The position numbers were made by a program, and so were the translations under genes. This document shows, in pieces, positions 7,493 through 53,154 of a stretch of 64,000 bases of DNA (the first letter of the stretch is position 1; the number at the start of each line of letters is the position of its first letter). Source of the DNA: Bacteroidetes bacterium GWE2_42_24 (lineage in GTDB: Bacteria; Bacteroidota; Bacteroidia; Bacteroidales; TTA-H9). The notes beneath the pieces are model-generated. The model worked only from the letters and a program-made list of their open reading frames with translations, ran no database searches and was not told the DNA's origin. Where the stretch lies: positions 1 through 64,000 of the forward strand of contig MEOA01000004.1 in NCBI GenBank assembly GCA_001768515.1, in the 5' to 3' direction.

Positions 7493-9364
7493 ATGAGTAC
7501 CACCATCAATCGCTGGCCCATCAGGTTTTATTCCGATCCAAAACGGGTGATAGCCAGGTTTTTCTATCCTGGTTCTGAAATCCGAATACAGTCGATCATC
7601 CAAAAAGTTACAGAAATGCCTGAAGAGGCTGCCCGTTTAACACTTAATCAATCGTTACGTGACTTCTCTTCACGGCACCGGAACATTTCAAAAATCTATC
7701 AGCGTCATTTTGATCGCATTAGTGCAATCATGGACGGAAGGGCTGGTGATCTCTCCATCCTGACTGATTCCAAAAAACTCTTGATTGGGGCCTATTTTAC
7801 CTCGGAGTACTCGATCGAATCGGCTGCATTCTTCAACCCTTCGATGGTTGAAGATCCCGACCAAACTGGTTTGATGGAAGGTCAAAAACGGGTGATCATC
7901 AGTTTCAGGGCTACCGGTGAAGGGCACATATCATCCATTGTATTCAGGGGGGGCATCCTCGATGCCGATAATACCCTACACCTCATCCCCACCGGGCGAT
8001 TAGTTGATCAGGCAGAAGCTGTGAGAAACTACATATACTCCAAGGAGGCTTTCTGCTCTAAACTCTCTGAAATGCATGCCGATGATGAGATGGTTAAACA
8101 GGTGATGTCAAAACTAAAACCCGAATTCGACTACAAAGAACTCTACAGCGCGATCGATGAAGTAGATCATGAATTTCATCCAAACGAAGCACAACTAAAA
8201 ATCCTGCAGACAATCAGTTGGCTGGGCGATTCACACTACGAAATTTCTTTCTCTCTCGATACCGGGATCTCCGACAGGGTGATCTTCCCGATTGCAGCCG
8301 CCGAAAGCAATGGCATCGAAGATGCCCGCTTCGTAAAATTTACCGACGATGACGGACTTGTACGCTATTATGCCACCTACACCGCCTACAATGGGCTAAC
8401 CATCATGACTAAGCTCATTGAAACAAAAGATTTTTACAATTTTAAGGTGATGCCAATTCATGGCGAGAATGCGCAGAATAAAGGTATGGCATTGTTTCCC
8501 CGGAAAATTCATGGCAAATACGCTATGCTGTCGCGCATTGACGGTGTAAACAACTATATTATGTTCTCCGACAATATAAACCGGTGGCATGAAACAAACC
8601 TGTTACAGGAACCTAATTTCCCCTGGGAGTTTATTCAGGTGGGTAATTGCGGTTCACCTATCGAAACTGAATATGGATGGCTTGTCATCACACATGGCGT
8701 GGGGACTATGCGTAAATACGCCATCAGCGCTATACTTCTCGACCTTGACGACCCGACTCAGGTAATCGGACAACTTACCGAGCCGCTGATCACTCCAAAT
8801 GAAGAGGAACGTGAGGGTTACGTGCCTAATGTCGTCTATTCCTGCGGATCGATCATCAACAACAATGAACTGGTGCTGCCATATGCCATGTCTGATACCG
8901 CTTCTACCTACGCTACCATCTCTATGAAGGAATTACTTACCAACCTGATGCCTTCTGACCTTAAGCGTGGCCGTCCCGGAACAAAACTGTCGAAAGGCCG
9001 GGTTCTGGTGGTGGATGATGAGGTAATCAACCAAAAGGCGATTGCTTCAATCCTTAAAAGTGATGGATACGATGTGGAAATTGCCCCGGATGGAATTATT
9101 GCCCTCATGCAAATAGGGAAGGAAAAATTTGATGTAATCCTCTCCGACATTGCCATGCCTAACTTCGATGGCTACCAAATGCTGGAATTCATCAAGGAAA
9201 ACAACATCGACATACCTGTAATTTTCTTGTCGGGTCATACCAGCCCCGAAGACGAAACAAAAGGCTTACAGCTTGGCGCCATCGATTATATCAAAAAACC
9301 AATCGATAGGAATCTCTTACTCGCCCGCCTTGATAAATTATTCGCCAATCACATTAAAAAATAA
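7493..9364 (+). CDS. GH130-like glycoside phosphorylase fused to a receiver (REC) domain
   Basis: A 623-residue two-part protein. Residues ~1-495 resemble GH130 beta-mannoside phosphorylases and related hydrolases: the five-bladed propeller strands include GIEDARFVKF, LFPRKIHGKYAMLSRIDG and a late ITHGVG...YAISAILLDL stretch. Residues ~503-623 are a complete response-regulator receiver domain, with VVDDE (Asp508-Asp509), SDIAMPNFDGY (phospho-acceptor Asp552) and a KKP lysine. No output domain follows. I take the ATG at 7493; a TTG two codons earlier is also in frame. It overlaps the opposite-strand glycosyltransferase gene by 11 bases. The REC domain may gate the phosphorylase through phosphorylation or binding. 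No kinase is adjacent. Confidence 0.8.
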   Translation: MSTTINRWPIRFYSDPKRVIARFFYPGSEIRIQSIIQKVTEMPEEAARLTLNQSLRDFSSRHRNISKIYQRHFDRISAIMDGRAGDLSILTDSKKLLIGAYFTSEYSIESAAFFNPSMVEDPDQTGLMEGQKRVIISFRATGEGHISSIVFRGGILDADNTLHLIPTGRLVDQAEAVRNYIYSKEAFCSKLSEMHADDEMVKQVMSKLKPEFDYKELYSAIDEVDHEFHPNEAQLKILQTISWLGDSHYEISFSLDTGISDRVIFPIAAAESNGIEDARFVKFTDDDGLVRYYATYTAYNGLTIMTKLIETKDFYNFKVMPIHGENAQNKGMALFPRKIHGKYAMLSRIDGVNNYIMFSDNINRWHETNLLQEPNFPWEFIQVGNCGSPIETEYGWLVITHGVGTMRKYAISAILLDLDDPTQVIGQLTEPLITPNEEEREGYVPNVVYSCGSIINNNELVLPYAMSDTASTYATISMKELLTNLMPSDLKRGRPGTKLSKGRVLVVDDEVINQKAIASILKSDGYDVEIAPDGIIALMQIGKEKFDVILSDIAMPNFDGYQMLEFIKENNIDIPVIFLSGHTSPEDETKGLQLGAIDYIKKPIDRNLLLARLDKLFANHIKK

Positions 9365-11561
9365 GATAAGGCTCAACCGTCAACCGCGCCATCAACCAGG
9401 CCATAGTGCTCTCGGCGCCCTGATTCCGGTTGATGTTCTTCTCTTCAATCCCGTCGTTGCACCCTTTGGTTTCAAAATCATATACACTGATTCCAAGATC
9501 ATTCTCTCCAAGGAACCATCTGAACGACTGTAACATTTGTGAAATAAATGTCCTGTCACCTGTGGCTTTAAACGCACATTCGTACATCAACACCATAGCA
9601 AGTGCATCGATAGGTTGCTGGGCATACAACTCATAAGAAGAACTGAACCGCTGCCACCTTTTGTTTCCCACTAATGATAACCAGGAATTGATAAAACACT
9701 TTTCTTCAAGAAATTTTCGTGTAATACCGGCAACATACAGATACTCATCTTTGCACGTCAGTTCGTGGGCCATATAAAGGGCCGCCGGAATCAGCCCGTT
9801 GTCATACGTAAGTGAATCTTCAAACCAATGCCAGTCTTCCAGATGATGTTGATAATAACGTACACATAAATTATCGGCAAGTTGAATAATCAGACTGATA
9901 AAACGCTCCTGATCAGGAAAGCGCTTTACATAATGGAAAAGCCCCAGGATGCAGTTGGCATACCCACGTGCATATTTTAATCGCCCAATGTGTGGCATCA
10001 ACCTATTAAACATCTCATTCGCCGTCAGCATGAGCGAATCACCGGGCGCATACCTGATCAGATAACCCAACGCCCATGTAGCCCTCCCAAAGGCGTCATC
10101 CGGGAAATCGTCATCAAGCGGCACCCTGTCAAAGGTTAGATAGTTTTTAAAAGAACCATCCGGTTGCTGCATCAATTGTATGTATGTCAGATATCTGGTG
10201 ATCAACCCTGTAACATCTGATTTCAGTCCCAACTGGCAGGCTTTTAGTGCCACAAGCAGCGCTCTTGCATTATCATCCAGACAAAACCCATGCCGAAGAC
10301 TGGGTACTGCTCCTAATGAATGTTGAAGAATTCCTTCCGGAAAGGTCATTCGATGCATATGTCTGAAATCAATCGGGGGATAATCTATAGCCGGTTCTTC
10401 GTGCTTTTCATTCGTTTCTCTGCCGACCTGCTGTAATATAGTCAGGTAAGCATCGCCTGTTCTGGACCACGAAATCGACTGTCCATAGGCATAGGCTGCC
10501 TCCTGCATCTTCTTCATCACATCGGGCTGATCGATAAGGAGGATAATGTGCCGGGCAAGTTCGCTATCATCCTGAAATTCAAAAAGCAACCCACGTCCAT
10601 CCTGTAAAAGTTCCTCGGCGTGCCAGTAGGGGGTTGAAATCACGGCACAACCACCACCAATGGCATAACTCAGGGTGCCACTTGTAATCTGGGTTTTGCT
10701 GAGATATGGAGTAACATATAGATCGGCTGCCTTCAACAGCGACATCAATTCCAACTCATCAACGTAACGATCGATGAACATCACATAACGCCCGAGCCCC
10801 AGCTTCCCGATAATCTGTTGCAGATATTCCCTGTATTCTTCACCGGAGTACCTCACCACGTTGGGATGAGTCTTCCCAAGTACAACATAGAGAATTTCAG
10901 GATGCCTTTCCACCACTTTTGGTAAAGCCCTGATGACGGTCTCGAGTCCCTTGCTTCTGCCGATAAGGCCAAAAGTCAGGATAACCGTGCGCCCTTTCCA
11001 TTCAGGAGGTGCAGGCATCAGCCGGTGACGTGAGCTTTCAAAATCAGGAACCCCGTGCGGAATCCTGACTATCTTTTCTGCCGGGACTCCATAAATATCA
11101 GTAAGGAATCCGATGGCTAACCCATTCATGATAACAATGCGTGTAGCCAGTCCGGCGACCTTCTTTAGCACCTCCTTCTGATGAAAACCCGGCTGCTGAA
11201 ACACGGTATGAAAGGTCACCACAACAGGAATACTGACCCGCCTCAACAGATGGAGCAGCAAAACCCCACTCTCGCCACCAAAAATTCCATATTCATGCTG
11301 TAGTAAAAGGACATCGGCTCCTGAACGGTTAATATAACCAGCCATTTCAATATAGGCTCCAGGGTCACTATCACTGATCGTATGACTAACAATCGGGGGA
11401 TAACTGTAGGAATTACCATTATCATTCATCGCAATTACCTCTACTTCAACAGCACTACCATTCATCTCTGCCGCCGAGATGATTGAATGCACAAGGTTGA
11501 CGGTAAAAGTTGCGATACCACACTGGCGTGGCAGATAATTTCCCAGACAGATTACTTTCAT
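9354..11561 (-). CDS. GT4 glycosyltransferase with C-terminal alpha/alpha-toroid domain
   Basis: A 735-residue protein. Residues 1-~375 are a GT-B, family 4 glycosyltransferase: N-terminal GNYLPRQCGIATFT, QHEYGIFGG, and a C-terminal donor-binding half with TFGLIGRSKGLE, DLYVTPYLSKTQITSGTLSYAI and an HAEELL segment. Residues ~390-735 form a second, helical domain (RHGFCLDDNARALL, WALGYLIRY, a WHWFEDSLTYDNG segment) like (alpha/alpha)6 barrels of six-hairpin glycosidases or epimerases. The pairing of this enzyme type with a GH130 protein suggests joint metabolism of a mannose-containing glycan; this is inference. No signal peptide. The stop overlaps the phosphorylase gene on the other strand. 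Confidence 0.75.
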   Translation of the reverse strand: MKVICLGNYLPRQCGIATFTVNLVHSIISAAEMNGSAVEVEVIAMNDNGNSYSYPPIVSHTISDSDPGAYIEMAGYINRSGADVLLLQHEYGIFGGESGVLLLHLLRRVSIPVVVTFHTVFQQPGFHQKEVLKKVAGLATRIVIMNGLAIGFLTDIYGVPAEKIVRIPHGVPDFESSRHRLMPAPPEWKGRTVILTFGLIGRSKGLETVIRALPKVVERHPEILYVVLGKTHPNVVRYSGEEYREYLQQIIGKLGLGRYVMFIDRYVDELELMSLLKAADLYVTPYLSKTQITSGTLSYAIGGGCAVISTPYWHAEELLQDGRGLLFEFQDDSELARHIILLIDQPDVMKKMQEAAYAYGQSISWSRTGDAYLTILQQVGRETNEKHEEPAIDYPPIDFRHMHRMTFPEGILQHSLGAVPSLRHGFCLDDNARALLVALKACQLGLKSDVTGLITRYLTYIQLMQQPDGSFKNYLTFDRVPLDDDFPDDAFGRATWALGYLIRYAPGDSLMLTANEMFNRLMPHIGRLKYARGYANCILGLFHYVKRFPDQERFISLIIQLADNLCVRYYQHHLEDWHWFEDSLTYDNGLIPAALYMAHELTCKDEYLYVAGITRKFLEEKCFINSWLSLVGNKRWQRFSSSYELYAQQPIDALAMVLMYECAFKATGDRTFISQMLQSFRWFLGENDLGISVYDFETKGCNDGIEEKNINRNQGAESTMAWLMARLTVEPYLIF

Positions 11562-41262: not shown

Positions 41263-41300
41263 AACAATACCTCTTCCTTGTTAAATTAATAAATGTGCGG

Positions 41301-41308
41301 CAAAGATA
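41301..41308 (-). promoter_or_regulatory. -7 box of the rpsU promoter
   Basis: TATCTTTG on the minus strand, 38 bases before the rpsU start. A TTTG lies 15 bases upstream (41324-41327), shorter than the usual 19-21 spacing. Confidence 0.5.
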
Positions 41309-41327
41309 TAAAATTCTTTCATTCAAA

Positions 41328-43153
41328 TGATAATTCACAGAGATCTATCGAAGTTTTGGTCAGATTTATAATCTTTTATCCCTTGATTCATCACCGCATT
41401 GCATCAAATTCCAAGAATGTAATTCGCTGATGCATAAATCGGACTCCATCGGAATCTGTTCAAAAAGTATAGCTTTAACCGGACTTACGACCATGATTTA
41501 TGAATGATTCTTTAAAATTCTACAGACTATTTCACTACGTGAAGCCAAAGTTATATCCGAATATTCTCTTTATGTTATGGCCATTATTGGAGCGTTAGTT
41601 GTTGACACTACAATTTCTTTTGCAGTTACCCTTCGATCACCCATTTGATCACCTAGAACAACTCCATGAACTACCTATGTATATAACTCTGTTTCCGTTA
41701 TTACACGTATGGAGTAGCACCAAATAATCAGTAACGGTTCTTCCATACTCACTGATAAGACAAAAATGGCAGAAAATTGCCCATCACTAAAATTGTGCCA
41801 AAAAAATCAAACAGTCACCATTTCTTCATATATAAGATACTCAAACGTTACTACAGCCATAGGCAATACATAAGAAAAAGATATCTTTGGCCTATCTTTG
41901 GCCTATCTTTGGGACGACTAAGAGACAAATCAGAGTTACAAACAATTAACATTCAACTGCTTAAAAAAATGCATTAAGTGACTTTATTCACGTAATAAAA
42001 AATTAAAAAAGTTGAAATATTTTTAAAAATGGGTAGAAAAGAAGGGTAAACACAATTCTAAATATTGGAATTTGGTTTTGTTCTTGGAAATCAGAAAAAA
42101 ATGCACATCTCCTGCAGGCCCCCGTGAAGGTGTGGGTATTGGTTCGGGCTGGATGGTCAATGCGATTAATTTGGACAGGTTTCTTTGCCACAAGGCACTT
42201 ATCGGTGGTAATAGATGGTTATGCAGCAGTCTATATTATACAGTTACTGCCGGCAGCGGCATGAAATGACATATTTTTATTTGCCTCATAAATAACACAC
42301 TATCTTCCGCACAGGATTAATCACGATCGCACTGCCTGCCGATTATACTTTAAGAATCATGACAATTCATATCCTGGCCATTTAAATTTCTTCATGCAAT
42401 TTCATGCAGACCATTTTTAACCAGCTCCCTCCAAACTGATGGTTAACGCCAATATCATCACTTCTTATCTAGATTACCAGCGATTAACAATAGTACGACA
42501 GGTGGTTAAAAGAAGAATTTGAGAAGAAAAGAGTTGTAAAAGACATAATACCCGTTTCCTTTTCTGGTTTTTCAGTCTTTAGCGATGATAATGATAAAAA
42601 CACTATATAATGATTCATCCTATATCTACGGTAGTTCCTGTTTAAATCTACCATGAAACTCACCAGAGGGTAACCTTTTTTACAACCCAGGTTTTAACCG
42701 GACAGTTTAGGCAGGGTTAAGAATAATCTATGGCATGACTACTGGATCTGATCTGGAACATTCCCAACGTATTAATGAATTTTCGAAGACAAGAAATCTA
42801 CATCAGATAAATCCCGGCAACAATATGATGAGCGCTATGAAATACAACCAACACTCGGGATATCAGGCAAACGTTACTAAGTAATGAAACTTCTTAAACC
42901 GAATATTAAAGCACCACTTTCATTCTATCCCCAATTATCTGAAATTATTTCACCAAAAATTGAAATATTGAGTATTAAAAATCAAAAAGCCAGAATATTT
43001 GTCCACAAAGTGCATGTAGTCACATATAATTTTAAAAAAAAGTAAAATTTCTTTATGGTAAAAAAAAATATAACATTTTATTTTCCACATGCTTACGTTT
43101 GATAATATCTTAGGAAATAAGTTTCATTGAAGAAAAAAGTAAAAAAACCATCT
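41328..43153. other. Gene-free region of about 1.8 kb
   Basis: No credible gene was found on either strand; all open frames are short and unlike known proteins. It holds the 11-bp repeat array at 41882-41913 and AT-rich stretches. A possible degenerate relative of the G-run regulatory element lies near 42667-42685. It borders the sigma/CHAT region and may be a graveyard of older insertions. Confidence 0.4.
41882..41913 (+). repeat. 11-bp tandem repeat containing three -7-like boxes
   Basis: Two full copies of GGCCTATCTTT (41889-41899, 41900-41910), a partial copy before them (41882-41888) and GGG after. TATCTTTG, a TAnnTTTG match, occurs three times at exact 11-base steps. It is related to the repeat at 12020-12044. 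Confidence 0.55.
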
Positions 43154-43191
43154 GGGGGGGGGTTACCTTTTGTAAAAAACTGACATTAATA
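43154..43191 (+). promoter_or_regulatory. G-run regulatory element, copy A (upstream of dockerin-like gene)
   Basis: Nine G, then TTACCTTTTG, TAAAAAAC and TGACATTAATATA. Apart from two single-base indels it is the same as the element directly upstream of the sigma factor gene (copy B, 49882-49920, opposite strand). It lies about 113 bases before the start of the dockerin-like gene. It is probably a promoter or operator recognised by the sigma factor or a shared regulator. Confidence 0.6.
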
Positions 43192-43304
43192 TATACTTGC
43201 TAACAAAAATCGGGCAGAGGTAACCATAACCTATCTTTTTCGTTAGTAGAGGTAATTATGTTAAAATTTGTCGAGATCGATACTAAACTTTAAACTTGTT
43301 CACT

Positions 43305-44489
43305 ATGAGATTTCTAAGTTACTCATTAATCACATTACTTTCAGCAGTACTTCTTTCTGCAACAGGGTTTTCCCAAAATACCATTGAGGGCTATCTGTTG
43401 TATCATAACGATCCGAATAAACCAATTCCTGGCTCAGAGGTTACTTTAACTTCATTAAATGGTGGATCGAATTATATAGCAAACACAGATAATATCGGGA
43501 AGTACGTCTTCACCAATGTTCCGGACGGAACTTATCAGCTTACAGCTTCAACAACCATTTCAGCAGGTGGCGTAACATTGGGCGATTCGTATCTTATTCT
43601 TTTACACTTATTAGGATTTAATACATTATCACCAATTCAACAAATAGCTGCAGATGTAACAGGAAATGGACAGATTGGATGGGATGACTACACAACCATT
43701 ATCTCAGGCTGGTTCCTCAATGGAAATCCATTCCCTGTTGGCGAATGGGCCTTTGATACCGAAATTATTACAACGGGCCTTAAGGATAACACAAACCTTG
43801 GCGGCACTTCAGCAGGAGATGTTAACGGAGGCTATATCCCCAACTTGACTAAAGGAAATGAGCTGTATGTTGCAGTTGAAAATGATATCGACAAAACAAG
43901 TACATCGATTCAAAGTCTATCCGTTATAGGAAATCTTACGACAACAGGCTTCGGCGTTGTTTTTGACCTATCACCCAAGACCCAAATCACAAATATCACT
44001 TCTGCATTGGATGGTTTTGATTATATAGTAGCCCACGATCAGTTAAGGGTTACATGGATTAATAAAACAGGAAAATTAGTCACATTGAATGAATCCGAAC
44101 CTTTATTCACTATTCAGGGCAAAAATCTAGAATTGGCTCCTTCCATCGAGAGTCATTTCATCGATTCAGAAGGTAACATTATTCCTAACATAACATTAAA
44201 AGCATCCTCACCAGTTACAACAGATAAAGACCTTTCGATAAGAAGGCTCTATCAGTCAGGATCAGAAATTATTATCGAGTGTTACACTTATAATGAGCAA
44301 AATATCAATGTAATCATAAGTGACATGAGTGGAAGAACAATTTCATCTGTCAGCACTAAAACAATCGCTGGACTTACTCAGATCAAGATGTCGACGCAAA
44401 CGATTCCATCTGGTATCTATACTTGTAATATCGCTTCAGACGTAGCGACGAAAAATACAGTATCAAAAAAATTCTTTATAAATAATTAA
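43305..44489 (+). CDS. Secreted dockerin-like protein with T9SS sorting tail
   Basis: A 394-residue exported protein. A signal peptide (1-24, ending GFSQ) is followed by a carboxypeptidase-regulatory/CNA-B-like beta module (~26-85). A dockerin-like pair follows: GGVTLGDSYLILLHLLG (~88-104) and DVTGNGQIGWDDY (~117-129), the latter with EF-hand calcium-loop spacing, plus GDVNGG at 171-176. A cohesin-like or adhesive domain (~180-300) and a type A T9SS tail (~310-394, SGIYTCNI core) complete it. The start is the ATG at 43305; an in-frame TTG lies three codons earlier. It carries the G-run element upstream and a terminator downstream, so it is an independent unit. It probably acts at the cell surface. 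No enzyme domain was seen. Confidence 0.8.
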   Translation: MRFLSYSLITLLSAVLLSATGFSQNTIEGYLLYHNDPNKPIPGSEVTLTSLNGGSNYIANTDNIGKYVFTNVPDGTYQLTASTTISAGGVTLGDSYLILLHLLGFNTLSPIQQIAADVTGNGQIGWDDYTTIISGWFLNGNPFPVGEWAFDTEIITTGLKDNTNLGGTSAGDVNGGYIPNLTKGNELYVAVENDIDKTSTSIQSLSVIGNLTTTGFGVVFDLSPKTQITNITSALDGFDYIVAHDQLRVTWINKTGKLVTLNESEPLFTIQGKNLELAPSIESHFIDSEGNIIPNITLKASSPVTTDKDLSIRRLYQSGSEIIIECYTYNEQNINVIISDMSGRTISSVSTKTIAGLTQIKMSTQTIPSGIYTCNIASDVATKNTVSKKFFINN

Positions 44490-44508
44490 TCGAAATCTAA
44501 GCAAGATT

Positions 44509-44540
44509 AGGCGGTTTCATAAATGAAACCGCCTTTTTTA
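44509..44540 (+). terminator. Rho-independent terminator
   Basis: A perfect 11-bp stem (44510-44520 with 44523-44533) with a 2-base loop and a T-run. It separates the dockerin-like gene from the CHAT gene. Confidence 0.85.
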
Positions 44541-44573
44541 ATTACAGTATGTTTTTTTAACAAGTTAAAAATC

Positions 44574-44581
44574 TAATTTTG
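44574..44581 (+). promoter_or_regulatory. -7 box of the CHAT gene promoter
   Basis: TAATTTTG matches TAnnTTTG and lies 61 bases before the CHAT gene start. The -33 region is only a T-run. This suggests the CHAT protein is made by the housekeeping polymerase. Confidence 0.4.
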
Positions 44582-44642
44582 CAATATTATCAGCACTTTT
44601 CGGTGCAGATAGCTATCATATAAAAATCATTACCTCGATTTA

Positions 44643-47600
44643 ATGAGAAGGCTTTTGCATAAAACGCATACGATTAGAATGGTTCTTGTTGTTTTTGGTT
44701 TAATGTTAGCCTCCACCTGCTTTATCTTTGCATCTCAAAAAATAAATTCAGCATTTGATTGGGAGAATCAAACTCAGAAATTTGAAAAATCTGGTGATAT
44801 TAAGTCAGCAAAAAAAATCTATGAAGATGCCTGTGAGTACTTTTTAAAAAACAAACTTTATAAAGAGTATGTCAGGTGCATTACGGGATTGGCAACATTT
44901 GAGAAGAATAATCGCGAATATGCGATCTCTCTTCAAATGATCAGAACAGCCGACAGCTTATATTTCAGGTACAAATTAGACGCTCCTCTGCTACTGGGTG
45001 AAATCAACCACCTTCATGGAACCCTGATGATTATTTTTGGAAATAATCTTTCAGCAGTTAAGCTATTGGAAAGTGCGATTCAGGAGAAAAGAAAATCGCT
45101 CAGTGAATTGGACACCATTTTGTCTGTTACATACAATAACCTGGGTATGGCCAACTCAAATCTCGAACAGTTTTCTAATGCTATTAAATACATAAATCTG
45201 GCGATAAATTCGCTTGAACATCAACAAAATAACAAACTTAATTTACTGGCAAAATTTCACGAGAATCTGGGAATCACATTTGCAAGGATGGGGGATTTTT
45301 CAAAAGCAAGGGATTATATGTTCCGATCGTTATCTGAGAAATTGAAACTTTCGACCAGCAAGAATGATTATGCAAATCTGGCCTCATCATATGTAAATTT
45401 AGGCCAAATTGAAACCACACTGGGAAATCTTGATTCAGCTTTCCATTATTTAAATTATGCTGAAAATTTGTTGACTAAAACCTCAAATCCTGAATCATCG
45501 GATCTTGATATCGTTTACAATCATAAAGGGAACATATATAGCTTGCAGGGTGATTATGAGAAAGCCCTTGTGTATTACAACAAATCCCTCATAATGCTAA
45601 GACGTAAATCACCAGGGCACAGCCGGATAAAGGAAATTGAAATGAACATAGGTCACATTTATTATGTCAAACAGGATTACGCTAAATCGGTTGAATATTT
45701 CCTGTCATCACTTGATCATACCACTATTTCTGCATCGCAGTTAAAAACTTACAGAAATCTGGGCAAAAGCATGGAAGCTCTTGGCAGATTAGATGAGGCC
45801 AAGGACTTTCTGACAATGGCAATTCGGCTTAGTGAACAGCGCTATGGTAAAGAAAATTTCGAGGTTGCGCTAAGTCATCTCCATTATGGGAATCTGTTAA
45901 AATCGATGAATCTTCTTGCTGAATCGCACAAACACTATAGCACTGCTCTTCAAATTAATAAAAAACTTTTCGGAACAAAAAACCGCGATGTAGCAGACTG
46001 TTATCTTAGATTAGCAGAATTGGAATTGCAGCGCAAAAACTATCATGCCTGTCTGCAGAATTATCAAAATGCACTCATTGCGCTGGTTGAGGACTTTAAC
46101 GATGCTAACCCCAGCACCAATCCGAATACCAATATTCAATCGCCAGATTATTACCTGATGAATGTATTCGCCGGCAAGGGCGAGGCTTTTTTCGAATTAT
46201 ACCGAAAAGATAAACAGTTAAAAGACCTCTATTTGAGCTTTAATAACTATAAACTTTACGCCTCGGTAGTAAATCAAATCAGAAGCAAGCTAAGTTCAGA
46301 CGAAAGCAATCTGGTCATTAGTAGCCGGCTACGTGAGTTGTTAGGCGGAGCTCTCAGAACTACAACAGAATTATATAAAGTAACCGATGATTCTTACTAT
46401 TTATCTGAAGCATTTATGTTCGCAGAAAAAGGTAAATCGGCCATTTTGCTTGCAGAGGTCAATGACCGCGAAGAGATGCTCGGAAACCCAATACCAGCTT
46501 CCATGGCCGCCGAATCAAAACAACTGAGGAATAATATCGCTGGTTATAATAAGCTTATCCATGAAGAATTAAAGTCAACTGCCCCAAATCTGAATAAAAT
46601 TGACCTATGGCGAGAGAAAGTGTTTGCCCTCGAAAAAGATCAGGAGGAATTAGCCAAACGAATCAAAACCATTAACCCGGATTACTTAAAATATCGCTTT
46701 GGAGATAAAATCCCCACACCCAAAGAACTTCAACAATTACTCCATAACGAAACAATTTTGGAATACACCCTCACCAATGAGGCAATATATACCTTTGTTG
46801 TCAATCCTGATACATTTGTCCTCAACATCACTCCGGTTGATAGTAAATTTAAAGAACTCGTGGCGAGTTATATTGATAATATCCGACATGGACTTCTTGC
46901 AGATGCCCAGTTAAGCTTCAATTCATTTATAGACCAATCGCATCAGCTATACAATATTCTGATCAAGCCGAACTACGAATACCTGATGTCTGAACGGTTG
47001 ATGATTGTACCCGATGGAATTCTTGGTTATATCCCTTTCGAAACCCTGATTAAGCAGTTGCCAGAATACTCTACGCCTGATTACCAGCACCTCAATTATT
47101 TAATTAAGGATCGATCTATCCGTTATAGTTACCTGGCCTCATTACCTTTTATTGAATGGCCGGCTCGAAAAAAGCCAGATAAAACTTTTGTAGGCTTCGC
47201 TCCTTTATACGTTCAAACTGAACCCAGGAATAATGATAATTTGGAATTCAGGCCTGTCTTAAATGATATACCAGGGATTAGAGTTGAAGTGCAGAAAATT
47301 GCTGAAGGAATTTCAGGCAGTGATCTCTTCCTTAATGAAAATGCCACTGAAGCTACCTTTAAAAAGATTTCAGGCGAGTACGAAATTCTCCATCTTGCTT
47401 TACACACTCTTGTCGATAATGATAACCCAATGTTCAGCAAGATGATCTTCTCTAATTCTCCAGATAGTACTGAAGATCAATTATTAAACACCTACGAAAT
47501 CTATAATCTCGACCTTTCAGCCCGGCTTGCTGTCCTTAGTAGCTGTAATACCGGTAGTGGCCGTTTAGTCAGTGGGGAAGGGGTTATGAGCCTTGCCAGA

Positions 47601-47942
47601 GGATTTCTATATGCCGGGGTACCTTCGGTTGTCATGACCTTATGGGAAGCAGAAGACGACGTGGCTACAGGGATGATGCCATCATTTTATGAAAATCTCA
47701 AACAAGGCCAGGAAATTGATCAGGCACTTCACAATGCTAAACTTGATTATCTGGCCTCCGCTGACCGACTACGTTCTCATCCATACTTCTGGTCCTCATA
47801 TGTCATGATTGGCGCCAACGAACCCATAACAAATCTAAAAGAGAAAGGAATTCCGGTATGGTTAATCACCATTGGGATTTTTACTCTATTATCCGTCATT
47901 GGATACTTGACTTCCAAGAAGATAACACAAAACAAGAAGTAA
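44643..47942 (+). CDS. Membrane-anchored TPR-CHAT protein (caspase-like peptidase)
   Basis: A 1099-residue protein. Residues ~10-32 form a signal peptide or anchor (MVLVVFGLMLASTCFIFAS). Residues ~35-500 hold about ten tetratricopeptide repeats (e.g. YNNLGMANSNLEQFSNAIKY, YANLASSYVNLGQIE). A helical linker (~560-690) precedes the CHAT domain (~750-1060). The His-Cys dyad of the caspase-like fold is intact: His921 in HLALHT and Cys968 in LSSCNTGSGRLVSGEG. A last membrane segment (~1071-1090, VWLITIGIFTLLSVIGYL) ends in a basic tail. The topology puts repeats and protease domain in the periplasm. CHAT proteins include separase-like and gasdermin-activating proteases. Here a neighbouring sigma/anti-sigma pair suggests a signalling role. 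Confidence 0.85.
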   Translation: MRRLLHKTHTIRMVLVVFGLMLASTCFIFASQKINSAFDWENQTQKFEKSGDIKSAKKIYEDACEYFLKNKLYKEYVRCITGLATFEKNNREYAISLQMIRTADSLYFRYKLDAPLLLGEINHLHGTLMIIFGNNLSAVKLLESAIQEKRKSLSELDTILSVTYNNLGMANSNLEQFSNAIKYINLAINSLEHQQNNKLNLLAKFHENLGITFARMGDFSKARDYMFRSLSEKLKLSTSKNDYANLASSYVNLGQIETTLGNLDSAFHYLNYAENLLTKTSNPESSDLDIVYNHKGNIYSLQGDYEKALVYYNKSLIMLRRKSPGHSRIKEIEMNIGHIYYVKQDYAKSVEYFLSSLDHTTISASQLKTYRNLGKSMEALGRLDEAKDFLTMAIRLSEQRYGKENFEVALSHLHYGNLLKSMNLLAESHKHYSTALQINKKLFGTKNRDVADCYLRLAELELQRKNYHACLQNYQNALIALVEDFNDANPSTNPNTNIQSPDYYLMNVFAGKGEAFFELYRKDKQLKDLYLSFNNYKLYASVVNQIRSKLSSDESNLVISSRLRELLGGALRTTTELYKVTDDSYYLSEAFMFAEKGKSAILLAEVNDREEMLGNPIPASMAAESKQLRNNIAGYNKLIHEELKSTAPNLNKIDLWREKVFALEKDQEELAKRIKTINPDYLKYRFGDKIPTPKELQQLLHNETILEYTLTNEAIYTFVVNPDTFVLNITPVDSKFKELVASYIDNIRHGLLADAQLSFNSFIDQSHQLYNILIKPNYEYLMSERLMIVPDGILGYIPFETLIKQLPEYSTPDYQHLNYLIKDRSIRYSYLASLPFIEWPARKKPDKTFVGFAPLYVQTEPRNNDNLEFRPVLNDIPGIRVEVQKIAEGISGSDLFLNENATEATFKKISGEYEILHLALHTLVDNDNPMFSKMIFSNSPDSTEDQLLNTYEIYNLDLSARLAVLSSCNTGSGRLVSGEGVMSLARGFLYAGVPSVVMTLWEAEDDVATGMMPSFYENLKQGQEIDQALHNAKLDYLASADRLRSHPYFWSSYVMIGANEPITNLKEKGIPVWLITIGIFTLLSVIGYLTSKKITQNKK

Positions 47943-48490
47943 CCTCTCTCACTTATTCTAGTTAGGGATATATTGATTAGACTTTATTAAGCGAAGCAAA
48001 ATGACTATGATTGATGCTCCAGTATTATATACTATCAACCGTGAGAAACATAAGGTGGCCCTGTCTTGTATCCTTTCATTATCAATCAGATATGCCTAAA
48101 AGCTTTGCTTCATTTATACTCAAAAGCTTAATACCTCGGTAAAAATATATCTGACGGACAGAGAATGCATCTTTCAGGAAAATCATTTCCATGAAAATTT
48201 CCCCCTACACAAGACAAAAATTTATGGAAGGATGGAGGGGCTTTACAACAAGGATTACATAATCTTAAACGCCTTCAAAAAACATCCGTAATTTACGGCA
48301 ATTCTTAAATAATACCTTTTTCAGAACAATTATTACGAAAAATCATGGGTTTAAAGCATCTTTGAATTAGCAACATAATCAACGTTTATAGAGATCCGTT
48401 TTGCAGCCAATTTACCCCAAAATTGTAATACAACACCTACCTTACTGATGCCATATATGCTTCATAATACTTCCCAAAGGACAAAATACT
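47943..48490. other. Intergenic region between convergent genes
   Basis: About 550 bases without a recognisable gene or terminator for the CHAT transcript. The sequence is AT-rich with scattered stops in all frames. Confidence 0.35.
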
Positions 48491-48527
48491 AGCCCCCCTC
48501 CAGAACATAATCATCTGAAGGGGGGCT
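48491..48527 (-). terminator. GC-rich hairpin after the anti-sigma gene
   Basis: A 14-bp stem with one mismatch (48514-48527 with 48491-48504), including six G-C pairs in a row, and a 9-base loop. Leftward it is followed by AGTATTTTG. It lies 33 bases after the stop of the anti-sigma-like gene and should end that transcript. Confidence 0.65.
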
Positions 48528-48559
48528 ATGTAATTGCAGGAAACAAAAACGTTTTATGG

Positions 48560-49300
48560 TTAATCTAATTGGTTCAGAAGGTCAACAGCTTTATCATTAA
48601 AGTAACTCTGAGAACCAGAGATAGTTTTAAGTGTACTCTTGGCCATTGGGAGATTGTCAGTTTTAATATAGCATAGAGCCAGATACCAGCCAGCCTGATC
48701 AGTGAAGAGATTAGATTGGTCCGCTGTAACTGCCTTTAAGTGTTCGATAGCTTTAGGGAAGTCATTAAGTTCCATCATTGAAATGGCAAGATAGAACCTT
48801 GCTGCCATATTATCAGTCTGAGAAGCTAACAGGCGGGCTGAGTTTACATAATCACGCTTGCCGTAATAGTGCATGGCTGTAACGAAATCCGAGGTACCGG
48901 CTGTTTCGGCAGAACGTTGCATTAAAAACGGTTCAGCTGGTTCATAATATTTCCCGTAGAGCTCCTTCCCCTGAGGGTGACCTCTAAAAAAAATCAATGA
49001 AAGGCCAATCAGAGTTATTACCAAGGCGGCAGCAACAGGTATTCTGGGCCATTTGGCAAAGGAAGAAAAGTGTTTACCAGTTGCCATACTGCTATCCCTT
49101 TCATGAATCTCTGAGAGTTTCCTGCGCAACTGTAGTGACTGCCAATCGTTCAACGGGGTATCAAGGGTGTCGGCCAGCATGACTTTTTGCTTCAAATCAG
49201 AATTCTCGATTATCCGCTCATTAAGTTTTTTCATATCATCCTGATTTAGTGCACCTTCTATATAGCCATTGAGCAAATGCTCATCTGTTTGATTAATCAT
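48560..49300 (-). CDS. Putative anti-sigma factor with periplasmic TPR domain
   Basis: A 246-residue membrane protein. The cytoplasmic part (1-~84) is helical, begins like Bacteroidota anti-sigma factors (INQTDEHLLNGYIEGALNQD, then LNERIIENSDLKQKV) and has no zinc motif. One membrane segment (~86-105, IPVAAALVITLIGLSLIFF) leads to a periplasmic TPR region (~135-246: AMHYYGKRDYVNSARLL, ARFYLAISMMELNDFPKAIE, GWYLALCYIKTDNLPMAKS). The ATG at 49300 overlaps the end of the sigma gene by 8 bases; an upstream start is less likely. Overlap with an ECF sigma gene is the usual sign of a sigma/anti-sigma pair. The assignment rests on context and topology, not on a recognised family. Confidence 0.7.
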   Translation of the reverse strand: MINQTDEHLLNGYIEGALNQDDMKKLNERIIENSDLKQKVMLADTLDTPLNDWQSLQLRRKLSEIHERDSSMATGKHFSSFAKWPRIPVAAALVITLIGLSLIFFRGHPQGKELYGKYYEPAEPFLMQRSAETAGTSDFVTAMHYYGKRDYVNSARLLASQTDNMAARFYLAISMMELNDFPKAIEHLKAVTADQSNLFTDQAGWYLALCYIKTDNLPMAKSTLKTISGSQSYFNDKAVDLLNQLD

Positions 49301-49874
49301 AGAATATATCTTTATATCCAGCATCAGCTATTACTCGTTTAATCAGTTTCTGTTTACATTCATATTTCTTTTTCTTTACAAAACTTTCAGTTACCCCCAT
49401 TATTTCTGCAATTTCTCTTACCGAAACATCTTCAATGTATAATCTCAGCAGTGTTTGGCAGCCTGCGCTCAAATGGATAAAATGACGCTGAATAAAATTC
49501 GACTTTTCGTTTTCATGATAAGAATCCAGAAACCCGGTATCCAGATCTGCAATATCTTCATATTCATGCATTTCACTTCCAATAATTGCATTCCGACGTT
49601 TATCTGCCAACCTTTGATGTACCCACAATACCTTTACGACCGATTGGAGATAAGTCCCAAATAAACAGTCTAATTCAAGCGGACTCTTTCTAACCCGCTG
49701 TAAAATAACCACTACAGCTTCCTGAAATATATCGAATGCATCCTCTTTGCCACCACCACGGGATTTTACAAACTTGAGAGCAACAGGAAAAAAAGAACTA
49801 TAAATAAAATCAAGCACACGTGTGTCGTTACTTACGATTCCTTCCAAAATCTGCTTTGTAGAAAACTTCGTCAC
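49293..49874 (-). CDS. ECF-type RNA polymerase sigma factor
   Basis: A 193-residue sigma-70 family protein with only regions 2 and 4. Region 2 contains KEDAFDIFQEAVVVILQRVR and GTYLQSVVKVLWVHQRL. Region 4 contains VSVREIAEIMGVTESFVKKKKYECKQKLIKR, a helix-turn-helix for the -35 element (segment spans ~150-180). The start codon is apparently GTG at 49874: the ATG two bases upstream is closed at once by TGA, and no early ATG is in frame. A G-run element lies 7 bases upstream of the start, the same as that before the dockerin-like gene. This suggests autoregulation. It is followed by, and overlaps, the anti-sigma-like gene. Confidence 0.88.
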   Translation of the reverse strand: MTKFSTKQILEGIVSNDTRVLDFIYSSFFPVALKFVKSRGGGKEDAFDIFQEAVVVILQRVRKSPLELDCLFGTYLQSVVKVLWVHQRLADKRRNAIIGSEMHEYEDIADLDTGFLDSYHENEKSNFIQRHFIHLSAGCQTLLRLYIEDVSVREIAEIMGVTESFVKKKKYECKQKLIKRVIADAGYKDIFYD

Positions 49875-49881
49875 ATCACAC

Positions 49882-49920
49882 TATATTAATGTCATTTTTT
49901 ACCAAAAGGTAACCCCCCCC
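49882..49920 (-). promoter_or_regulatory. G-run regulatory element, copy B (upstream of sigma factor gene)
   Basis: On the minus strand eight G are followed by TTACCTTTTG, GTAAAAAA and TGACATTAATATA, ending 7 bases before the GTG start. It matches copy A at 43154-43191 over about 38 bases. If it contains -35 and -10 elements the mRNA would be leaderless or nearly so. Confidence 0.6.
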
Positions 49921-50422
49921 GAAGCGATTTTTTTAAAAAAACTTTTCAACAACCTTGTTAACAACTCATGAAAGCTCCCCTTTGTTCTTATAATAGCAAT
50001 TATATCAAATAGTTATTCAATTATCTAAGGAATTACAAAGATATAAAAAAAAACAAACGATCAAAAAAAATAGGTGACATCACGCACCTTTAAAAGTAAG
50101 CTTTGCAAAGATTATTGTCAATGATTACGATTACAATTAATAATACGTGGGGACAACTAACGTATCACCCCCCCCTCCCTTACTCTTCCGACAGTTTAAA
50201 CCCATTGGCACAACCATTTAATCTTGAAATCGGTAGTTTTGGCTACACCCCTTTTCTATGGTAAGATTAATTTCCTTTCGTTATCTATGGTCTAGCCCTT
50301 CATAAATCTGGCGGTATCGTAGATGAGTACTTCTCACCAGAGACATTATACTAATTACATTTGTCATAGGCAATGAAATGCTTCAGAAAAAAGAACTCAT
50401 TAAAAATTTGTAGGTTTGTCGC
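49921..50422. other. Regulatory region between sigma gene and namZ
   Basis: About 500 AT-rich bases without a gene. It holds a leftward housekeeping-type promoter (50036-50065) and a second G-run on the minus strand (nine C at 50168-50176 on the plus strand). A TAGGTTTG at 50411-50418 matches the -7 box but ends only 4 bases before the namZ ATG. Confidence 0.4.
50036..50065 (-). promoter_or_regulatory. Housekeeping-type promoter upstream of the sigma gene
   Basis: On the minus strand TTTG (50062-50065), 18 bases, then TATCTTTG (50036-50043). It would give the sigma mRNA a leader of about 160 bases that includes G-run element B. The sigma gene may thus have a basal and a self-activated promoter. 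Confidence 0.45.
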
Positions 50423-51649
50423 ATGATAATAAAGTCGCTTTCGATAATCGTTCTTTGGATTCTGGGTTTAACATCATGTTCGTCGCAGAATCAAAATCAT
50501 CAGGTAAATGTTTTACCCAATGTATCAAAGACATCGGTCACTGCCCAGATCGTAACAGGGGCAGAACATACGGCAGATTACACTGGTCTTCTTGCAAACA
50601 AGAGGGTTGGGTTGGTTGTTAACCAAACATCAGTAATCGGCAAACAGCATCTGATCGATACACTTCTTAAGCTTGGCATTCGTATAGAAGCTATTTTCGC
50701 CCCCGAGCATGGTTTTAGAGGAAATAACCCGGATGGAGACATAATTAGAGATAACAGGGATTTAAAAACAGGTATAGAAGTCTGGTCACTATATGGGAAA
50801 ACGAAGAAGCCAACACCAGAGCAACTTGACAGAGTTGACATCATCGTATATGACATTCAGGATGTTGGCGTAAGGTTTTACACCTTTATATCAACATTAC
50901 ATTATGTAATGGAAGCCTGTGCTGAAGCAGGGAAACCCCTGATTGTTTTTGATCGGCCAAATCCAAATAGTGGTTATATCGACGGCCCGGTTCTCGACAC
51001 TTCCTTCCGTTCTTTTGTTGGAATGCATCCTATACCGGTTGTCTATGGGCTTACACCAGGTGAACTGGCTGAAATGATCAATGGGGAAGGCTGGCTGAGA
51101 AATTCAAGAAAATGCAACCTGAAAATAATTCCGCTTTCAGGATACAGTCATGGGGACAAGATATCCTTGCTAATACCACCGTCTCCAAATCTCCCTAATG
51201 ATTTAGCCATCAATCTTTATCCTTCACTTTGCTGGTTTGAAGCAACACCGGTAAGCATAGGCCGTGGCACGCCATGGCCGTTTCAGGTTATTGGGTTTCC
51301 GGATGAAACATGCGGACAGTTCTGCTTTGAGCCACAGCCGATTAAAAATGCCTCAATTAGCCCTCCTCAGAAAGGAAAAAAATGTTTTGGAGATGACTTG
51401 CGGAATACGTTCTATAGAAACCAGATCGATTTAGACATTTTCATACAATATTACCATCATTTGAAGAATAAAACCAAGTTCTTCGAGCGTCCTGATTTCT
51501 TCGACAAATTGGCCGGGACTGATCAATTACGATTTGATATTGAAAGCGAAAAGACAGAAGCTGAAATTCGCGACGGATGGCAAAAGCAGCTAACGGAATA
51601 TAAAACACTAAGGCAGCGATATCTTCTATATCCGGATCACTCCAAATAA
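50423..51649 (+). CDS. namZ: Exo-beta-N-acetylmuramidase NamZ (DUF1343, GH171) lipoprotein
   Basis: A 408-residue lipoprotein (lipobox LTSC, Cys19) of the DUF1343 family, in which NamZ enzymes cut N-acetylmuramic acid from the non-reducing end of peptidoglycan fragments. Family marks are GLVVNQTS (~63-70), IFAPEHGFRG (~91-100, conserved Glu95), VYDIQDVGVRFYTFISTL, and DRPNPNSGYIDGPVLD. The length fits. It lies 14 bases before a sodium:solute symporter gene, suggesting recovery of MurNAc or muropeptides released during cell-wall turnover or taken from other cells. Confidence 0.9.
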   Translation: MIIKSLSIIVLWILGLTSCSSQNQNHQVNVLPNVSKTSVTAQIVTGAEHTADYTGLLANKRVGLVVNQTSVIGKQHLIDTLLKLGIRIEAIFAPEHGFRGNNPDGDIIRDNRDLKTGIEVWSLYGKTKKPTPEQLDRVDIIVYDIQDVGVRFYTFISTLHYVMEACAEAGKPLIVFDRPNPNSGYIDGPVLDTSFRSFVGMHPIPVVYGLTPGELAEMINGEGWLRNSRKCNLKIIPLSGYSHGDKISLLIPPSPNLPNDLAINLYPSLCWFEATPVSIGRGTPWPFQVIGFPDETCGQFCFEPQPIKNASISPPQKGKKCFGDDLRNTFYRNQIDLDIFIQYYHHLKNKTKFFERPDFFDKLAGTDQLRFDIESEKTEAEIRDGWQKQLTEYKTLRQRYLLYPDHSK

Positions 51650-51663
51650 CCCAAACCTTACTC

Positions 51664-53154
51664 ATGAACCCTCTGATTGTGTTGATTTCGGCTGTCGGCT
51701 ATTTTGCCTTATTATTACTTATAGCACGTTTTACATCAAAAAATTCAAATAACTCAACCTTTTTTACTGGTAATCGTCAATCACCATGGTTTGTCGTGGC
51801 ATTCGGGATGATTGGTGCCAGCCTTTCAGGTGTAACACTTATTTCAATACCTGGAGAGGTTGGAAACAGTGGGTTTGAGTATTTCCAACTGGTGCTGGGT
51901 TATCTGTTAGGTTATGCAGTAATCGCTTTTATTCTGATGCCCTTATACTACAAATTAAACCTTGTTTCAATATACTCTTATCTCGGACAACGTTTTGGAA
52001 AACCAGCCTATAAAACAGGAGCAATCTTCTTCCTGATAAGCCAGACGATTGGGGCTTCCTTCAGGCTTTTCTTAGCCGCCATAGTTTTGCAAATTACTTT
52101 CTTTGCACATTATGGAATACCCTTCTCAATTACAGTTGCTGTTACAATAATTTTGATCTGGCTATACACCCACAAAGGAGGAATAAAGACAATAGTATGG
52201 ACCGACACACTTCAAACCTTCTTCATGTTACTCGCTGTCATACTCACGATTATAATCATCTTACGGGATCTCCATCCTGAATCAGGTTCTGTGCTCACCA
52301 CCCTTCAGGAAAGCCATCTGACCAGGATATTCAACTGGGATTGGCGTTCGCCCAATCATTTTGTAAAACAATTCCTCTCGGGAGCCTTTATTGCTATTGT
52401 AATGACAGGACTGGATCAGAATATGATGCAAAAAAATCTCACCTGTCGCAATCTTCGCGATGCTCAGAAAAACATGATGACCTTTTCACTTATACTACTC
52501 CCTGTAAATTTAATATTTCTGACCATGGGAGCCTTGATGTATCTCTATGTCCAGCAAGCCGGACTTACATTTACAGATACGCATGGTTTCATGTTCGATG
52601 TTATCAATCAAAATTATATTCATACTGATGCCCTTTACCCATTACTGTCAATGAATTATCTTGGGACAATCGCATCTGTAGTCTTTATTATCGGAGTTAT
52701 AGCAGCAGCATACTCGAGTGCTGATTCCGCAATGGCGGCATTGACAACCTCCTTCTGCATTGATATTCTGAACTTCCGCGATTTCGACAATATCAAGAAA
52801 CAACGCATTCGTTTTTGGGTGCATGTAGCGGTATCTGTTGTGGTTTTTTTAACCATATTGCTATTTAGGGCATTTAACAATACCAGCGTTATTAATGCTG
52901 TTTTTACGATGGCGGGATATACCTACGGCCCTTTATTGGGATTATACAGCTTTGGTCTTTTTACAAGGCTAAAGCCTGCGAAGAACATAATTCCGCTAAT
53001 TGCCCTCATCTCCCCTGCCCTGACATGGTACATTGGTAAAAATTCGGAGACCTGGTTTAATGGTTATAAATTTGGGTTCGAGTTGCTACTGGTAAATGGT
53101 GCATTGACTTTTATAGGATTATTACTGATTTCCAGACGGTCGAAAAAATCATAG
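51664..53154 (+). CDS. Sodium:solute symporter family protein
   Basis: A 496-residue inner-membrane transporter with about 13 membrane segments of the SSS (SLC5) family. The start (LIVLISAVGYFALLLLIARF), the FFTGNRQSPWFVVAFGMIGA segment, the IWLYTHKGGIKTIVWTDTLQ loop and VIAAAYSSADSAMAALTTSF (sodium site region) are typical. It is probably co-transcribed with namZ. A MurNAc or related sugar is therefore the best guess for the substrate, by analogy with MurNAc scavenging in Tannerella forsythia. The sequence alone does not fix it. Confidence 0.88.
   Translation: MNPLIVLISAVGYFALLLLIARFTSKNSNNSTFFTGNRQSPWFVVAFGMIGASLSGVTLISIPGEVGNSGFEYFQLVLGYLLGYAVIAFILMPLYYKLNLVSIYSYLGQRFGKPAYKTGAIFFLISQTIGASFRLFLAAIVLQITFFAHYGIPFSITVAVTIILIWLYTHKGGIKTIVWTDTLQTFFMLLAVILTIIIILRDLHPESGSVLTTLQESHLTRIFNWDWRSPNHFVKQFLSGAFIAIVMTGLDQNMMQKNLTCRNLRDAQKNMMTFSLILLPVNLIFLTMGALMYLYVQQAGLTFTDTHGFMFDVINQNYIHTDALYPLLSMNYLGTIASVVFIIGVIAAAYSSADSAMAALTTSFCIDILNFRDFDNIKKQRIRFWVHVAVSVVVFLTILLFRAFNNTSVINAVFTMAGYTYGPLLGLYSFGLFTRLKPAKNIIPLIALISPALTWYIGKNSETWFNGYKFGFELLLVNGALTFIGLLLISRRSKKS

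Follow-up and report, generated by a model that had tools for sequence, protein, structure and literature searches.

A predicted envelope switch in Bacteroidota in which an anchored TPR-CHAT protease would cleave a one-span anti-sigma factor

Between 43.1 and 49.9 kb of a 64,000-nucleotide stretch of the Bacteroidetes bacterium GWE2_42_24 genome (contig MEOA01000004.1, positions 1 to 64,000; this whole stretch is referred to below as the window) lies a module of four genes, encoding a dockerin-like type IX cargo protein, a TPR-CHAT protein, a one-span TPR anti-sigma factor and an extracytoplasmic function (ECF) sigma factor. We propose, with a probability of roughly 77%, that this module is an envelope switch in which the CHAT protein cuts the one-span anti-sigma factor and so frees the ECF sigma factor, which would turn on the gene of the type IX surface protein. 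The dockerin-like and CHAT genes lie on the + strand and are convergent with the sigma and anti-sigma genes on the - strand. An initial annotation of this DNA, made from the letters alone, had described these four genes and suggested that they form a non-CRISPR, envelope-facing counterpart of type III-E systems. Pfam and TIGRFAM matches and hydropathy recovered all four genes as described, and the suggestion itself is supported by synteny, topology, promoter co-evolution and the joint switching of a protease pocket and a linker residue.

The TPR-CHAT protein (44643..47942, + strand; 1099 amino acids), which is the proposed site-1 protease, carries a CHAT domain at residues 766-1058 that matched PF12770 with 199 bits against a cut-off of 24 (E=1e-58). 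The signal-type segment, TPRs, His921/Cys968 dyad and C-terminal anchor that had first been read from its sequence were found again by Pfam and hydropathy, which placed an N-terminal hydrophobic segment at residues 13-31 and a C-terminal membrane span at residues 1069-1087 (47847..47903, +). Using 99 unique full-length CHAT proteins from Bacteroidales as homologues, we found that the catalytic residues His921 (codon 47403..47405, +) and Cys968 (codon 47544..47546, +) were invariant in 99/99. The C-terminal span was present in 97/99, with a mean net charge of -0.1 before it and +3.8 after it, and this bias predicts that the CHAT body lies outside the cytoplasm; an N-terminal hydrophobic segment was found in 68/99, with start sites left uncurated. 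For the scan of the CHAT collection we used a 7-row alignment, a 27-row alignment being too diverse. A sequence search of the PDB for CHAT relatives gave TPR proteins or chance matches only.

The sigma gene (49293..49874, - strand, GTG start) matched TIGR02937 with 65.6 bits (cut-off 42.9; E=4e-18) and Sigma70_r4_2 above its cut-off, with a weak match to Sigma70_r2, and its product is a sigma-70 type protein with regions 2 and 4 only, as in ECF factors. It lies directly 5′ of the anti-sigma gene (48560..49324, - strand; 254 amino acids, conserved start probably at 49300), overlapping it in the window and adjoining it in most relatives. The anti-sigma protein is predicted to consist of a cytoplasmic helical N-terminus, one membrane span (residues 90-108 by hydropathy; 49001..49057, -), a linker and a periplasmic C-terminal TPR domain. 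A single span was detected in 107/115 homologues, with a mean net charge of +3.3 before it and +0.2 after it, which predicts that the N-terminus is in the cytoplasm and the TPR domain in the periplasm. HMM matches, hydropathy and this charge bias thus agree with the initial annotation, which had noted a sigma gene overlapping a gene for a one-span protein with periplasmic TPRs. Our AlphaFold model of the anti-sigma protein has four helices in the N-terminal part, before the span, while Foldseek and VIA searches with this model returned TPR domains only, the result lists being filled by the TPR part; the N-terminal domain thus has no assignment, and the missing hits do not count against an anti-sigma fold. 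We also found a natural fusion in a single genome (L100; 3146-4492, +), in which sigma and anti-sigma form one 448-residue open reading frame with Sigma70_r2 at its N-terminal end and TPRs at its C-terminal end; if this fusion is real, proteolysis would be the obvious route by which the sigma factor is freed.

The linker between the span and the TPRs displayed a conserved pair of residues within an otherwise variable region: across 115 anti-sigma factors, Arg137 was conserved in 98% and the Ser138 that follows it in 89%, while most other positions varied, apart from two Tyr residues farther upstream that were kept in 89% and 83%. In the AlphaFold model of a 249-residue construct, linker residues 131-138 had predicted local distance difference test (pLDDT) values <50, the lowest confidence class, which agrees with a flexible linker. 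We propose Arg137-Ser138 (codons 48911..48916, -) as the cleavage site. To this residue we compared the CHAT domain in neighbouring CHAT/anti-sigma pairs across the phylum, a set with 134 unique informative CHAT proteins. Arg-linker partners accompanied 115 of the 134, and every one of these (115/115) had both Glu882 (codon 47286..47288, +) and Asp1005 (codon 47655..47657, +). The other 19 had a non-Arg partner, with Met in 13 cases and Leu, Lys, Thr or His in the rest, several of which have a Met nearby. Glu882 was found in 0/19 of these non-Arg-type CHAT proteins (mostly Leu, Ala or Ser), and Asp1005 was absent from 17 and kept in 2/19 (mostly Glu instead), while His921 and Cys968 (each 19/19), Trp1001 and Trp1050 were retained. 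The one seeming exception is L217, where CHAT is divided between two open reading frames, the second of which carries both acidic residues; the two halves are convergent (7580-8332, +; 8329-10896, -), probably through an inversion or an assembly fault.

We masked both pocket columns and inferred a maximum-likelihood tree for the CHAT domain. On it, loss of Arg took three changes and loss of Glu882 took three changes, and these fell on the same three of 252 branches, a coincidence expected by chance with a branch-length-weighted probability of about 2e-6. Species history alone is insufficient to account for this match, because both types occur together in G445, with one pair each (L219 and L229). 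Such a co-switch is what one would expect if the linker residue were P1 and the pocket residues belonged to S1. The data are read most simply with Arg137 as P1 and with Glu882 and Asp1005 as the lining of S1, and we conclude that the CHAT protein most probably acts as site-1 protease on the anti-sigma factor.

The positions of the two acidic residues invite comparison with a known protease of the same clan. Glu882 lies within a predicted helix (residues 879-889), 39 residues before His921, and Asp1005 sits 37 residues past Cys968; the corresponding distance in MALT1 is 36, from its catalytic Cys464 to Glu500. Clan CD peptidases mostly cleave after Arg or Lys, and MALT1 reads its P1 Arg through Asp365 (in alpha1), Asp462 (in L4) and Glu500 (in L5), while in a Leu-specific enzyme of the clan the alpha1 position is Ala (PMC4357240). 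The catalytic domain of CHAT and the TPR domain of the anti-sigma factor are both predicted to be periplasmic, as had been supposed at first; the further idea that the TPR domains of the two proteins meet there lacks specific support, and the covariation that we observed connects the CHAT pocket with the linker.

We examined sigma/anti-sigma/CHAT neighbourhoods in other genomes by open reading frame and hidden Markov model (HMM), and found that seven genomes from the family of the window share the quartet in synteny (in two of them a contig end truncates the dockerin-like gene) and that it is present in several further Bacteroidales families. Sigma/anti-sigma/CHAT trios also occurred outside Bacteroidales, in other Bacteroidota families of the same class, for example f123, which we infer to be Flavobacteriaceae. 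The lack of a conserved neighbourhood in relatives, which the initial annotation had named as an outcome that would refute its idea, therefore did not appear. A search with an anti-sigma profile across the order gave matches in 70/149 genomes, and CHAT lay within 10 kb of at least 37/73 strong matches, against about 0.7 expected. CHAT was present in 49/49 genomes with an anti-sigma match of E <= 1e-20, compared with 31/100 of the others (Fisher p = 2e-18). Conversely, among 79 CHAT loci in named genomes, 76 had a cognate sigma gene and 69 had both sigma and anti-sigma genes. Two layouts recurred, one with the dockerin-like and CHAT genes facing the anti-sigma and sigma genes, as in the window, and one, seen in some relatives, in which the anti-sigma gene is separated from the sigma gene by CHAT and, together with CHAT, faces it.

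The sigma gene and the dockerin-like gene are each preceded by the same promoter-like element, GGGGGTTACCTTTTG..AAAAA.TGACATTAATAT. The copy at the dockerin-like gene (43154..43192, +) is made up of a G-run, TTACCTTTTG, a spacer and TGACATTAATAT, and the second copy (49883..49920, -), found by motif search and within-locus co-variation, precedes the sigma gene, where it predicts autoregulation. The exact 15-mer GGGGGTTACCTTTTG occurred twice in the window, against 0.11 occurrences expected by chance. Searching the whole genome (4.3 Mb) with a longer pattern at <=3 mismatches and with a gapped pattern, we recovered only these two sites each time, while a reversed-pattern control gave 0 sites genome-wide. 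The common upstream element that had been noticed at these two genes is thus borne out.

In relatives, the element again stood at the sigma and dockerin-like genes, and lineage-specific changes were identical in both copies. Across 18 loci, the best 32-base match of the sigma upstream region to the upstream region of its own dockerin-like gene averaged 26.2/32, compared with 21.4/32 for other loci (p < 1e-5; 0/100,000 permutations were as good). The motif has diverged in some lineages (GTGCACTTTTT, GTGCGTTTTGGC, GTGCGATTTT), with both copies altered jointly, which is the pattern due for a sigma factor with its two promoters. An element that precedes both the sigma gene and a regulon gene, is unique genome-wide and co-evolves within loci is what an autoregulated promoter looks like in silico, and we regard it as well supported by these sequence comparisons that the sigma factor would drive its own gene and the dockerin-like gene. 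The earlier proposal that the sigma factor turns on a secreted product gains in silico support from this co-evolution. A shared-promoter role for the CHAT gene was considered and rejected: in the same 18-locus comparison, the CHAT upstream region showed no within-locus preference (19.6 vs 19.6) and no within-locus match to the sigma element, and in the window an intrinsic terminator, rated strong (44509..44541, +; 11-pair stem with a T-tail), separates the dockerin-like gene from the CHAT gene. Neither this terminator nor the conserved Arg-Ser pair of the linker had been mentioned in the initial annotation.

The predicted output of the sigma factor is the secreted surface protein encoded at 43305..44489 (+; alternative start TTG at 43296), in which we identified, by Pfam and by eye for the signal peptide, a signal peptide, a CarboxypepD_reg domain, a dockerin-like EF-hand loop (DVTGNGQIGWDDY) and a C-terminal type IX sorting domain. 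Por_Secre_tail scored 23 bits in the window protein, which is below the cut-off of 27, and 46.1, 40.5 and 27.8 bits in its orthologues at L068, L149 and L079; with the sorting domain recognised through these orthologue scores, the protein combines the signal peptide and C-terminal sorting domain of type IX cargo. For the dockerin-like loop there was no Pfam match in the window protein, and PF00404 was matched in the orthologue at L079. Orthologues occupy the same place in four relatives (G001-G004) and in other families. The dockerin-like and CHAT genes abut or overlap in G004 and L073, and co-transcription is possible there.

Further copies of the element point to a larger regulon in some relatives. 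One relative (G002) has four extra copies (L029, L030, L031 and L032, on contigs C58, C79, C87 and C2), three of which precede clusters of type IX-sorted proteins, the fourth lying at a contig end; near-identical 295-residue proteins are encoded at two of these sites, and the whole looks like an expanded, duplicated regulon. Near the module in several families, a further copy precedes a histidine kinase gene (266-315 amino acids; HisKA, HATPase_c), as at L069:12388-13239, L113:6051-6998, L141:7391-8218 and L150:5372-6172, and this kinase is possibly an additional regulon member. Within the genus, G-runs of 8-10 (43154-43162 and 49913-49920 in the window) abut the -35-like box and vary in length between copies, making them a possible site of slippage (phase variation); a C-run also lies near the element, at about 50169-50176.

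Taken as a mechanism, these observations suggest the following course. At rest, the one-span anti-sigma factor would tether the ECF sigma factor to the inner membrane, as the overlapping genes, the topology and the one fusion imply. The TPR-CHAT protein, fixed to the same membrane with both its TPR array and its caspase-like domain facing the periplasm, would be activated by some signal, perhaps one sensed by the CHAT TPR array or type IX cargo accumulating in the periplasm. It would then cut the linker between the span and the TPRs, most probably after Arg137, as the covariation strongly suggests, and site-2 and cytoplasmic proteolysis, as in known anti-sigma pathways, would free the sigma factor. 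Promoter co-evolution and genome-wide specificity predict that this factor recognises GGTTACCTTTT-n-TTAAT-type promoters and would switch on its own operon and the dockerin-like gene, and in the one relative with extra copies (G002) the same sigma element precedes type IX cargo clusters.

Several observations weigh against this proposal. In several loci CHAT lies some kb from the anti-sigma gene, or was not found in the stretch examined. The switch of linker and pocket occurred independently only three times, so that a sign test on three pairs cannot reach significance, and one of the three (L237) rests on a single long branch with its pair 2.1 kb apart. The non-Arg clades also show partial changes in CHAT columns 973, 986 and 1016. 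The anti-sigma N-terminus matches known anti-sigma domains weakly (zf-HC2 in 3/20, best E 0.0018). Finally, the CHAT core was modelled poorly, with pLDDT <50 at residues 910-1000, and the pocket role of Glu882 and Asp1005 therefore rests on sequence position and analogy.

We weighed these points together with other explanations of the module. The CHAT substrate could be something else, such as the dockerin-like cargo or another periplasmic protein, with the anti-sigma factor cut by a DegS- or Prc-like enzyme. Anti-sigma genes that have no CHAT in the stretch examined (L089, L091, L095, L097, L099 and L103) would fit this, as would the many loci in which the dockerin-like gene is the direct neighbour of CHAT. 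We nevertheless think it unlikely, since the linker residue and Glu882 co-switch completely and on the same three branches, every genome with a strong anti-sigma match has CHAT, and many loci with no detected dockerin-like gene still have CHAT next to sigma/anti-sigma. That CHAT binds the anti-sigma factor as a scaffold or TPR co-sensor, with no proteolysis, is suggested by the TPRs in both proteins; we consider this highly improbable given that His921 and Cys968 are invariant (99/99), even where pocket residues change, and that the natural fusion at L100 suggests release by proteolysis.

A different question is whether the TPR membrane protein inhibits the sigma factor at all. It could instead be a sensor or activator that the sigma factor needs (a pro-sigma arrangement), and here it counts in favour that its N-terminus resembles known anti-sigma domains weakly and that FecR-type regulators have been described in both roles, as anti-sigma factor and as activator. 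Class I anti-sigma factors typically have a gene overlapping that of the sigma factor, an N-terminus inside the cytoplasm and, between this N-terminus and the span, a bundle of helices, and the protein shares all three features, which makes an activator role rather unlikely in our view. Because cleavage could activate the sigma factor either way, such a role would alter the sign of the resting state and not the protease step of the proposed switch.

We also considered whether the module is a type III-E (Craspase) system. In type III-E, Csx29 is a TPR-CHAT protein and its substrate Csx30 binds and inhibits CASP-sigma (PMC10028731); a TPR-CHAT protein with intact His/Cys, which the window encodes, an ECF sigma factor and a sigma-binding substrate would fill the same three roles. 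PADLOC, applied to the four genes and ten neighbouring or nearby proteins, gave no specific defence or CRISPR match and only a generic TPR match. Over this same set, no Cas protein, Csx30 or Csx31 was found in or near the module, so that the combination of Cas7-11, crRNA array, Csx30 and Csx31 was missing, and the initial statement that CRISPR genes are lacking holds over that range. With CHAT exported and membrane-anchored and the outputs being type IX surface proteins, we rejected the CRISPR or defence reading, which strikes us as barely credible.

Other features of the locus and its relatives are as follows. Rfam at gathering threshold found no RNA elements in the regions between the module genes. 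About 1.8 kb of the window (41300-43150) contains no open reading frame of >=80 amino acids and no Rfam match. Genes for a NamZ-type exo-N-acetylmuramidase and a sodium:solute symporter (50423-53154) adjoin the module, and this adjacency is kept in several relatives (L027, L034, L035 and L036). The window's genome encodes a second CHAT protein (L002; G000:C33:38074-39165) with ~31% identity over the CHAT part. At seven loci (L115, L116, L117, L125, L132, L143 and L146) a single CHAT gene stands between two anti-sigma-like genes, where one protease may serve two inhibitors.

If the proposed switch is correct, it would represent a new class of site-1 protease for anti-sigma proteolysis, would connect type IX surface proteins with ECF signalling and would provide a non-CRISPR parallel to the Csx29-Csx30-sigma pathway. 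Although widespread in bacteria, CHAT proteases have few known substrates, most of them from defence systems; for the exported CHAT enzymes of Bacteroidota, a whole family, the module predicts the substrate, the residue at which it is cut and the regulon, together with a specificity code in which an acidic pocket serves Arg and a non-acidic pocket serves Met. This family includes the cultured genera Marinifilum, Labilibaculum and Ancylomarina. More tentatively, and at somewhat less than even odds, we surmise that periplasmic anchored TPR-CHAT proteins form a Bacteroidota-wide class of dedicated site-1 proteases of ECF anti-sigma factors, with matched Arg- or Met-specific pairs able to coexist in one cell (both kinds occur in G445), and that type III-E Csx29-Csx30-CASP-sigma is related to this older envelope switch, from which it would differ in being cytoplasmic and triggered by RNA.

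Our literature search, which left most subscription journals outside its scope, found no description of the module, and the module would be a non-CRISPR, widespread form of anti-sigma proteolysis for which, in the literature searched, the CHAT type of protease is undescribed. Its closest likeness is to Csx29-Csx30-CASP-sigma (PMC10028731), with which it shares a TPR-CHAT protease, a sigma-inhibiting substrate, a sigma element in the promoters of its own locus and a cut, here predicted, in a flexible loop or linker. Unlike type III-E, it has no Cas7-11 or crRNA over the range screened, its CHAT protein faces the periplasm with an N-terminal hydrophobic segment and a C-terminal anchor, and its predicted outputs are type IX surface protein genes; unlike Csx30, its inhibitor is a one-span membrane protein with a predicted cut beside the span, after Arg. 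In having sigma and a membrane anti-sigma factor in one operon, autoregulation and a predicted outer-face cut beside the span, the module resembles the RseA/DegS/RseP, RsiW, RsiV and RsiP/signal peptidase systems (PMC8844934). It differs from these canonical class I pathways in its proposed site-1 protease, a CHAT protein of clan CD (caspase/separase-like) encoded beside the pair, and in the sensor domain of the anti-sigma factor, which is made of TPRs.

CHAT proteins have also been noted in the neighbourhood of ECF54 in Actinobacteria, for which control by neighbouring proteases, CHAT among them, was proposed from context (PMC8999054); going by its description, ECF54 is listed without an anti-sigma factor (PMC8999054), whereas in the module an anti-sigma-like gene overlaps the sigma gene and its product carries the predicted cleavage site. 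The fusion at L100 recalls IutY of Pseudomonas putida, where sigma and anti-sigma form one chain and proteolysis is the obvious means of release, although that protein is part of a siderophore system in which Prc and RseP do the processing and no CHAT takes part (PMC5411451, PMC8999054). A last parallel is PorXY-SigP (PMC7712824), another case in Bacteroidota of an ECF sigma factor with a link to type IX secretion and of a pathway that includes a cargo-type protein. SigP acts together with the two-component system PorXY, and what it controls is the secretion machinery (PMC7712824), whereas the predicted regulon of the module consists of cargo genes, and its control would lie with an anti-sigma factor and CHAT.

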